Shown piece after piece: positions 53,524 to 55,670 of a DNA stretch of 64,000 nt. The notes beneath the pieces are model-generated. The model did no database searches. It was not told where the DNA came from and worked only from the letters and a program-made list of their open reading frames with translations. Location of the stretch: NCBI RefSeq assembly GCF_000223905.1, contig NC_015948.1, forward strand, positions 310,001 to 374,000, given 5' to 3'. The stretch is from Haloarcula hispanica ATCC 33960 (GTDB lineage: Archaea; Halobacteriota; Halobacteria; Halobacteriales; Haloarculaceae). Numbering within the stretch: position 1 is the stretch's first letter; each line of letters begins with the position of its first letter. Position numbers and translations under genes: made by a program.

Positions 53524-53559
53524 GCCTCGGACTTCGCGGTTACTTTTGCTGCTACCTGC

Positions 53560-54060
53560 GGCACATGAGCGGCCATTGTCGACCCTGTTTGTGTAGAACC
53601 CGGCGAGTTCGCGCTCTTCTGACGGGAACGCACCGCGTGCGATGCGGCAAATACTGCCACTCCATCGCAGGTGTGGTCGTTTTCGCCGACAGGGGCGCGT
53701 TGAAGTCGTTTGCTGTTCATGACTGGTCCACACAGTATCGTAGCGTGATACCAATGCAGACAATCGAACGACGCGACGTTTCCGGCGATGTGAGGAATGG
53801 GGCTGACAGTGGTCCGGCAGAGGGAGCCACCGATGTCTGATGGACGCTACTGCCGGCAGGTCGCGCCGGCTGATGTCGCACCCGAACTCATCGTGCTGTC
53901 GTCGGGTGACCGTGGTCTCCCTGTTGACGAGACACGGCTCGTAACTGACGGAGGCGGACCGATACCCGGTGTTCCAGACGACGGCGGCGACAATTACGGC
54001 TGCGGGAGTTCCCGCGGGCATGGGGATGCTGCCCACTGCGTCCAGGTTATGACGTTGCTA
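53560..54060 (-). pseudogene. Decayed archaeal type IV pilin gene (candidate)
   Basis: No intact gene covers this stretch, but the minus strand contains pilin-like pieces in order. A hydrophobic segment AVGSIPMPAGTPAAVIVAAVVWN resembles the N-terminal pilin helix (normally [22 protein letters not shown]). It is followed by ETTVTRRQHDEFGCDIS, resembling the TVTHEGGD block, then HIAGNVASFDC and VWTSHEQQTTSTR, matching the AGDxVTVD and VVWTS ends. The pieces lie in different frames and the N-terminal class III signal is scrambled, so it looks frameshifted. The assignment rests on my own alignment. Confidence 0.4.
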
Positions 54061-54287
54061 AACGGCGACTGAGCGATTTTGACAGCTAAAACGGCTGTCT
54101 GACTCACAACGCAGGGCCTGATATCGTGACCCGGGGACGAAGATACCTATGCGCTCGATAACCGCTCGGGAACAGTACGGATAGTTGTAACTCGGGTCTC
54201 GAACCACACCGCAACAGGCCGATGTTCGGCTATCGAGGTGTAGAACCACCCGTGAACTGGCCGAAATACCGGACTCGAACCATTCAT

Positions 54288-54341: not shown

Positions 54342-54381
54342 TGCTAAGCCGTTCTGTCGGCTCTCCGTCAGACGCTTAGCA
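54342..54381. repeat. Long imperfect hairpin upstream of the PGNET lipoprotein gene
   Basis: TGCTAAGC (54342-54349) pairs perfectly with GCTTAGCA (54374-54381). Inside, TCTGTCGG and CCGTCAGA pair with one mismatch around a CTCT loop, giving 15 of 16 pairs with small bulges (CGT left, C right). It ends about 42 bases before the lipoprotein ATG, just upstream of a TATA-like tcataaact. It could be a regulator site, a terminator of an upstream transcript, or part of a structured RNA. Confidence 0.55.
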
Positions 54382-54422
54382 GGTCATTCATAAACTGTCC
54401 GGCTTCTCTTCGGGCAAACGCT

Positions 54423-54968
54423 ATGGGACGACCCACATCTCGACGGAACGTTATCAAAATCGCAGGCGGCGCACTCGTGGCGCTGGCTGGCTGTAGTGAC
54501 ACTGGCGGCAGCGGTACGGAGACTGGCGGTGGCGGCGGTGCCGAAGCTCCGGGCACATCTACGGCAGCAGAGACTGACGCGATGACGGAAGCCGGTACGG
54601 AATCGCAGACGGAAACTGAAGCCCAGACCGAAGAAGGAACCGGGATGGATACCGAGACGGAACTGGGCGAGAACGAAACCGATGCTCTCGGAAACGAGAC
54701 GGAGATGTCGGATACTGAAACAGATCTGCCCGGCAATGAGACCGGAGTACCGGGGAACGAAACTGAAATGCCTGGCAACGGGACCGAGGCTCCAGGCAAC
54801 CAAACAGGCGTGCCCGGTAACGAAACGGAAAGACCAGAGAACGAAACTGGGACGGCCGGAAACGAGACTGCGGTTCCGGGCAACGAAACTGACCTGCCCG
54901 GCAATGAGACTGGAACGGCTGGGAACGAGACAGGCAACGAGACGACCGAGAACGACACCGGAACGTAA
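54423..54968 (+). CDS. Tat lipoprotein with PGNET repeats and dense N-glycosylation sequons
   Basis: A 181-residue surface lipoprotein. A Tat signal (RPTSRRNVIKIAGGALVALAG) ends with the lipobox Cys24. The mature part is entirely low-complexity: first Glu/Thr-rich (about 55-85), then about ten degenerate 8-10-residue units with the core PGNET (for example TDLPGNETGV, EMPGNGTEA). Residues about 80-180 hold 14 N-x-T sequons, one every 7 residues. There is no globular domain, so it is probably a heavily glycosylated, acidic surface spacer. Function unknown. Confidence 0.75.
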   Translation: MGRPTSRRNVIKIAGGALVALAGCSDTGGSGTETGGGGGAEAPGTSTAAETDAMTEAGTESQTETEAQTEEGTGMDTETELGENETDALGNETEMSDTETDLPGNETGVPGNETEMPGNGTEAPGNQTGVPGNETERPENETGTAGNETAVPGNETDLPGNETGTAGNETGNETTENDTGT

Positions 54969-55019
54969 GCCGCTGCCGCCGTGCCGGGCCTCGTTCTGCT
55001 CGGCCGGGTGAGATTGTTG

Positions 55020-55670
55020 CTACTCTCGGGCGGCCTCGACGGCGTCGACGAACGCCGCGGCCTGTTCGCGGACGCCGTCCATGTCGTCATTCTCGATTGC
55101 CTCGTAGTTGACCAGCGCTGAGCCCGCGCCGACAGCGACCGCGCCGGCATCAAAGAACTCGTCGACGTTGTCGGTCGAGACGCCGCCGGTCGGCATAATC
55201 GGGACGTCGCCGAGCGGACCCTGCAGCGCGCCGATGTGTGCCGGGCCGACCGTTTTCGCTGGGAACATCTTCAGGATGTCCGCGCCCGCCTCCATCGCGT
55301 CGGCGGCCTCCGTCGGCGTCATGACGCCGGGGATGGCGAGGACGCCCTCACGATTGCACACGTCGATGACGTCCTCGTTGAGGTTCGGTGCGAGGACGAA
55401 CTCCGCGCCGGCCTCGATGACGTTGCGGGCGGCGGCGGCGTCCATGACCGTGCCGGCCCCGATGATGGCGTCGGTGTCGTCCAGAGCCTTGTCGACCGCG
55501 GCGATCATGTCCGAGCAGCGCTTCGCGTCGGCCGTCAGTTCCAGCGCCGTGACGCCGCCTTCGTGGACGGCTGTCGCCACGTCGACCATCTTTTCCTCGG
55601 GAATCCCGCGCAGGACTGCCGTGACGCCGCTGTCGACCAGTTCCTGTTGTACCGCCTGTTTGCTCGTCAT
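55020..55670 (-). CDS. kdgA: 2-keto-3-deoxy-6-phosphogluconate aldolase
   Basis: A 216-residue class I aldolase of the Entner-Doudoroff pathway, splitting KDPG (and possibly KDG or the galactose analogue) to pyruvate and glyceraldehyde 3-phosphate. AGTVMDAAAARNVIEAGAEF and ADILKMFPAKTVG (Schiff-base Lys) are signature blocks, followed by IMPTGGVSTDN. The length and fold match the bacterial KDPG family (Eda) and not the DapA-like archaeal KDG aldolases. A kinase making KDPG is not in this window. The dehydratase at the left edge would act upstream. Confidence 0.9.
   Translation of the reverse strand: MTSKQAVQQELVDSGVTAVLRGIPEEKMVDVATAVHEGGVTALELTADAKRCSDMIAAVDKALDDTDAIIGAGTVMDAAAARNVIEAGAEFVLAPNLNEDVIDVCNREGVLAIPGVMTPTEAADAMEAGADILKMFPAKTVGPAHIGALQGPLGDVPIMPTGGVSTDNVDEFFDAGAVAVGAGSALVNYEAIENDDMDGVREQAAAFVDAVEAARE

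Follow-up and report, generated by a model that had tools for sequence, protein, structure and literature searches.

The window analysed here, a stretch of 64,000 nucleotides from Haloarcula hispanica ATCC 33960 (positions 310001–374000 of contig NC_015948.1), carries between ftsY and kdgA a gene of 181 codons that starts with ATG, and its coordinates had been given exactly by the first-pass annotation (Table 1). The N-terminus of the encoded 181-aa protein, MGRPTSRRNVIKIAGGALVALAGC, reads as a Tat signal followed by a lipobox. The twin-arginine pair is R7-R8, within SRRNVIKIAGGALVALAGC, and L21-A-G-C24 has the invariant cysteine of a haloarchaeal Tat lipoprotein; the Pfam TAT_signal profile gave 12.5 bits, below its cut-off. 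Counting the cysteine, the mature chain comprises 158 residues, among them 38 Asp/Glu, 34 Thr and a single Lys/Arg. No Pfam domain above cut-off and no NCBIfam match were found in the protein. Both collections were also negative for S-layer domains and for the C-terminal PGF sorting signal of archaeosortase substrates, and the C-terminus was NETTENDTGT. The AlphaFold2 model, computed with 12 orthologues, had a mean pLDDT of 49, a pTM of 0.09 and no secondary structure, and the mature chain is predicted to be disordered. The earlier description of this ORF, a Tat lipobox start followed by low-complexity acidic repeats with the core PGNET, was confirmed. Proteomics may miss the protein, as it has almost no trypsin sites. 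An antisense ORF of 261 aa (54368–55153, reverse strand) was rejected as a gene and taken as the mirror of the low-complexity frame.

Table 1. Features of the lipoprotein locus (window coordinates).
Feature	Position	Strand	Basis
Hairpin of the first-pass annotation, not a conserved part	54342..54381	+	Perfect 8-bp arms confined to G000 and G001
Promoter block CTTAGCAGGTCATTCATAAA, with TATA-like TTCATAAA 28 nt before the ATG	54375..54394	+	Near-invariant in 15 orthologues
Sequon-repeat Tat lipoprotein gene, 181 aa	54423..54968	+	Orthologues in 15 genomes at the same place; dN/dS
Tat motif RRNVIK, residues 7–12	54441..54458	+	Sequence; RRNV(I/L)K kept in 15/15 orthologues
Lipobox LAGC, residues 21–24, predicted lipidated Cys24	54483..54494	+	Sequence; present in 15/15 orthologues
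Gly/Thr/Glu-rich linker, no sequons, includes conserved G-G-A-E-A-P-G-T	54495..54671	+	Sequence, orthologue alignment
Sequon array, 14 N-x-T, mostly 7-residue spacing, core xxPGNET	54672..54959	+	Repeat analysis, sequon count

The 14 sequons of the array fell within 96 residues (84–179) and consisted of 11 NET and one each of NGT, NQT and NDT, without any N-x-S. Each of the 14 Asn in the mature chain belonged to a sequon. The earlier count of 14 N-glycosylation sequons in about 100 residues was borne out. When the residues of the mature chain were shuffled (n = 5000), 3.2 ± 1.5 sequons were obtained, with a maximum of 10. The sequons of this exported-type chain were thus in excess of chance, as would be expected of an AglB-dependent N-glycoprotein, and the comparison of NET with TEN repeats described below pointed the same way. 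The tandem repeats, the predicted disorder and the density of glycosylation sites were those of a mucin-like protein. The units of the array differed among themselves at synonymous codon sites, which indicated that they are not recent copies at the DNA level.

Upstream of the gene, the 20-bp promoter block was nearly invariant among the 15 species with an orthologue, and its flanks diverged. The distance of the TATA-like element from the ATG suggested a nearly leaderless haloarchaeal transcript. The block was conserved beyond the needs of a plain TATA/BRE, and it may include an operator. It was ruled out as a genome-wide regulon site, since the genome held a single exact site and one more with a mismatch. 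The 40-base hairpin reported earlier does exist, but it forms no part of the finding: its 8-bp arms were perfect in only 2 of the 15 species, which ruled it out as a functional element, and an Rfam search returned no family (best E 0.93). Its 3′ arm makes use of the promoter block by accident, and its 5′ arm is found in only two species.

The spacer between ftsY and the gene is about 900 bp long. A decayed pilin had been placed there, and this claim did not hold: a Pilin_N profile search of the genome gave no match near 363.5–364.4 kb, and no pilin was found in the frames of the spacer. Instead, the first 250 bp (53524–53770) aligned at 77–79% with the region after ftsY in genomes G007 and G011, and the alignment reached the gene start MNTVERWKQ. 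This segment appears to be a remnant of the start of a nitrite/sulfite-reductase-like gene, the name being given by reading of the sequence. Such a gene follows ftsY in G007, G011, G020 and other genera, and is deleted in H. hispanica and its close relatives. A further frame of 91 aa (53797–54072) contained an aconitase/LeuD-like motif, GDNYGCGSSRGHG, with a Pfam Aconitase_C match below cut-off (E 0.031); it is possibly a gene fragment or a chance frame.

Orthologues were detected in 15 of 32 Haloarcula genomes, including those of H. amylolytica, H. vallismortis, H. argentinensis, H. sebkhae, H. japonica and H. mannanilytica. They always adjoined kdgA, and they lay downstream of ftsY wherever the examined stretch extended that far. 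They were 146–184 aa long with 9–15 sequons each, and the whole set contained one N-x-S. Summed over the 15 orthologues, 186 of 190 mature Asn were in sequons. The middle residue of the sequon drifted (NET, NGT, NQT, NDT, NAT, NVT, NKT, and NMT), whereas N and T were constant. Among the six closest species, the N and T positions were 100% identical in amino acid, a value somewhat inflated by the tendency of the protein alignment to pair NET units, and the spacers 72% identical. In these species dN/dS stayed below 0.4 in every region, with values of 0.19 for the linker and 0.36 for the spacers. Repeat number differed between species by whole units, and the reading frame was intact in all 15. 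Taken together, these comparisons indicated that the gene is real and under selection. The locus was empty or differently occupied in the other 17 of 32 Haloarcula species, and the protein is therefore dispensable at the level of the genus.

The other occupants of the locus pointed to its history. In seven genomes (G008, G012, G016, G021, G022, G025, and G026), the gene that directly follows ftsY, and runs in its direction, encodes a Tat lipoprotein in which the DUF4397 domain (PF14344, E 1.1e-38) is present twice. These lipoproteins shared with the 181-aa protein the ftsY-kdgA locus, the strand, the Tat signal, a lipobox within AGGALVALAGC and a Gly/Thr/Glu-rich segment after the cysteine. 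However, they had two domains and almost no sequons, whereas the 181-aa protein had no domain and 14 sequons; DUF4397 was matched neither in this protein nor anywhere in the H. hispanica genome, and the relation to that family is one of locus and signal peptide only. Two genomes, G002 and G009 (L167 2544–2843 and L168 2523–2846), contained short repeat-only Tat lipoproteins at the same position, built of acidic Thr-rich units (MGEETETGMG, with ETETGMG units) and devoid of sequons. Since such chains occurred in two species, the locus can apparently accommodate a spacer without sequons as well. Genome G010 had a form of 106 residues with three sequons, and seven Haloarcula genomes had no lipoprotein at the locus. 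In 20 genomes from other genera of the family, no comparable lipoprotein was found directly after ftsY on the same strand; one of them (L138) had an unrelated Tat protein of 463 aa there.

The similarity of the signal peptide to that of the 181-aa protein scored 57–75 for all eight other locus occupants compared and 34–54 for 13 unrelated Tat lipoproteins, the comparison set being drawn in part from weak matches. These scores supported one gene lineage with an exchanged C-terminal part, which is either a head with a linker or a stalk alone. The 181-aa protein thus probably belongs to the same lineage as the DUF4397 lipoproteins and represents the stalk without the head. The sequon form was a single clade (support 87–89), and the three-sequon form was its sister in the midpoint-rooted tree. 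In that tree, loss of DUF4397 was likely rather than gain, with low backbone support and a root that the outgroups did not supply, as the two outgroup kdgA sequences fell at different places in the genus tree.

The genome encodes the oligosaccharyltransferase AglB (TIGR04154, 929 bits, above cut-off). The S-layer proteins of H. hispanica carry an N-linked sulfated trisaccharide and also an O-linked disaccharide (PMC9943897). For Haloferax, 114 sites on 45 N-glycoproteins have been confirmed, and the protein with the most sites, 19, is HVO_2160 (PMC8241124). Like these AglB-dependent N-glycoproteins, which include the S-layer glycoproteins, the 181-aa protein bears export signals and multiple N-x-T sites and would be expected to use the same transferase. 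However, HVO_2160 is the largest protein of Haloferax volcanii, whereas here 14 sites are crowded into 96 residues of a chain of 158 residues predicted to lack a fold. The mucins and bottlebrush glycoproteins of eukaryotes offer a working analogy, since their dense sugar is likewise carried on a scaffold of disordered tandem repeats; there is no homology, eukaryotic mucins are O-linked, and the chain considered here has N-linked sites, is far shorter and would be lipid-anchored.

A period-7 NETx3 pattern was present in 66 of 391 haloarchaeal genomes and in 23 of 86 genera. The reversed pattern TENx3, which has the same residues, served as a control. It occurred in 3 of 194 haloarchaeal genomes, and NETx3, counted by hand among the same 194, in 37, an excess of about twelvefold. 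Of the three control cases, one was a 7-base microsatellite and another was embedded in a NET repeat. In genera other than Haloarcula, export signals were present on the NETx3 proteins with a readable start, except for L093, which is probably in a wrong frame; the starts of L070, L071, and L089 were off the locus and were left out of this reading. The excess of NETx3 and the export signals argued that the NET motif is kept as a sequon on exported proteins.

The best-supported reading is that the gene encodes a heavily N-glycosylated surface lipoprotein, a view that draws in part on the export and lipobox signals, the presence of AglB, the selected sequons and the excess of NET over TEN. We put at roughly two in three the probability that the protein is a disordered, lipid-anchored and N-glycosylated surface bristle, that is, an acidic chain built to carry many N-glycans. 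It would be exported by the Tat route and then anchored in the membrane through Cys24. At many of the 14 N-x-T sites, AglB would add the N-glycan of the species, of the sulfated trisaccharide type known from the S-layer; the 7-residue spacing of the sites may leave this filling only partial. The sugars together with the acidic residues would hold the chain stretched, hydrated and protease-resistant, and the stretched chain would act as a bristle or spacer between the membrane and the S-layer that displays sugar to the outside. We infer export, lipidation, site occupancy and the bristle role from the sequence.

An unlikely, though the most serious, alternative is that the protein is a usual haloarchaeal acidic disordered membrane spacer, little glycosylated, in which N-x-T is a by-product of repeat expansion. 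T/E/G-rich linkers were indeed frequent in the Tat lipoproteins of the examined loci, and the ETETGMG repeats of G002 and G009 fill the same locus without sequons. Yet a by-product does not agree with nearly all Asn lying in sequons over 15 species while the middle residue drifts and N and T remain, with the roughly twelvefold excess over the reversed motif, or with units whose synonymous differences exclude recent DNA copying. Still less probable is a reading as a relic, in which a former DUF4397 lipoprotein has shed its domains and now decays by drift. The shared locus and strand, the similar signal, the lack of any DUF4397 in H. hispanica and the variable orthologue length (146–184 aa) would fit a relic. 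The opposite holds for the unbroken frame of all 15 species, the dN/dS values under 0.4 and the near-invariant promoter block, and the array is richer in sequons than the short G010 form rather than poorer. A mainly O-glycosylated or repeat-variable recognition protein (a virus receptor or decoy, or a mating or adhesion tag), with repeat number as the varying trait, could be imagined from the 34 Thr of the mature chain, the whole-unit variation between species and the O-linked disaccharide of the S-layer, but dN/dS is well below 1 without any sign of fast diversification, no specific use is supported, and this is the least probable reading of all.

Beyond the surface bristle that we favour, a narrower proposal is offered tentatively, at somewhat less than even odds: the protein would be a dedicated N-linked archaeal "mini-mucin," a headless lipid-anchored stalk that came into being at a locus of DUF4397 lipoproteins and was kept only as a dense N-glycan scaffold, and similar stalks would have evolved repeatedly in other haloarchaea. 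Work on archaeal N-glycosylation has dealt mostly with S-layer proteins, archaellins and pilins. With a mature chain that is all sequon array, the 181-aa protein would offer a clean natural substrate with which to ask at what density AglB can load a chain and what dense sugar does on the surface of an archaeon. It would also illustrate how an independent protein can arise from a linker.

Five proteins from other haloarchaeal genera (L087, L088, L090, L097, and L099) resembled the 181-aa protein in being exported proteins with NET or NES repeats, and differed from it in their signal peptides and repeat units. Like the 181-aa protein, L088, L090, and L097 were repeat-only, sequon-rich Tat lipoproteins. 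Unlike it, L087 and L099 keep DUF4397 domains, and in L087, a lipoprotein, they are combined with a sequon-rich linker. Sequon stalks thus recur with and without heads. No paper on such a protein was found in the literature searched. The first-pass annotation knew of no described counterpart, and within this literature that stands for the exact protein; it does not extend to linkers made of sequon repeats or to sequon-rich Tat lipoproteins that consist of repeats alone, both of which recur in other genera, or to the DUF4397 lipoproteins of the same locus. What the gene encodes is probably a Tat lipoprotein of the haloarchaeal kind of which only a sequon stalk is left, and as such it is probably undescribed. 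An even richer sequence, L089, was observed in another genus of the family (G282), where a fragment with an open frame of 675 residues contained 55 sequons, 27 of them NET.
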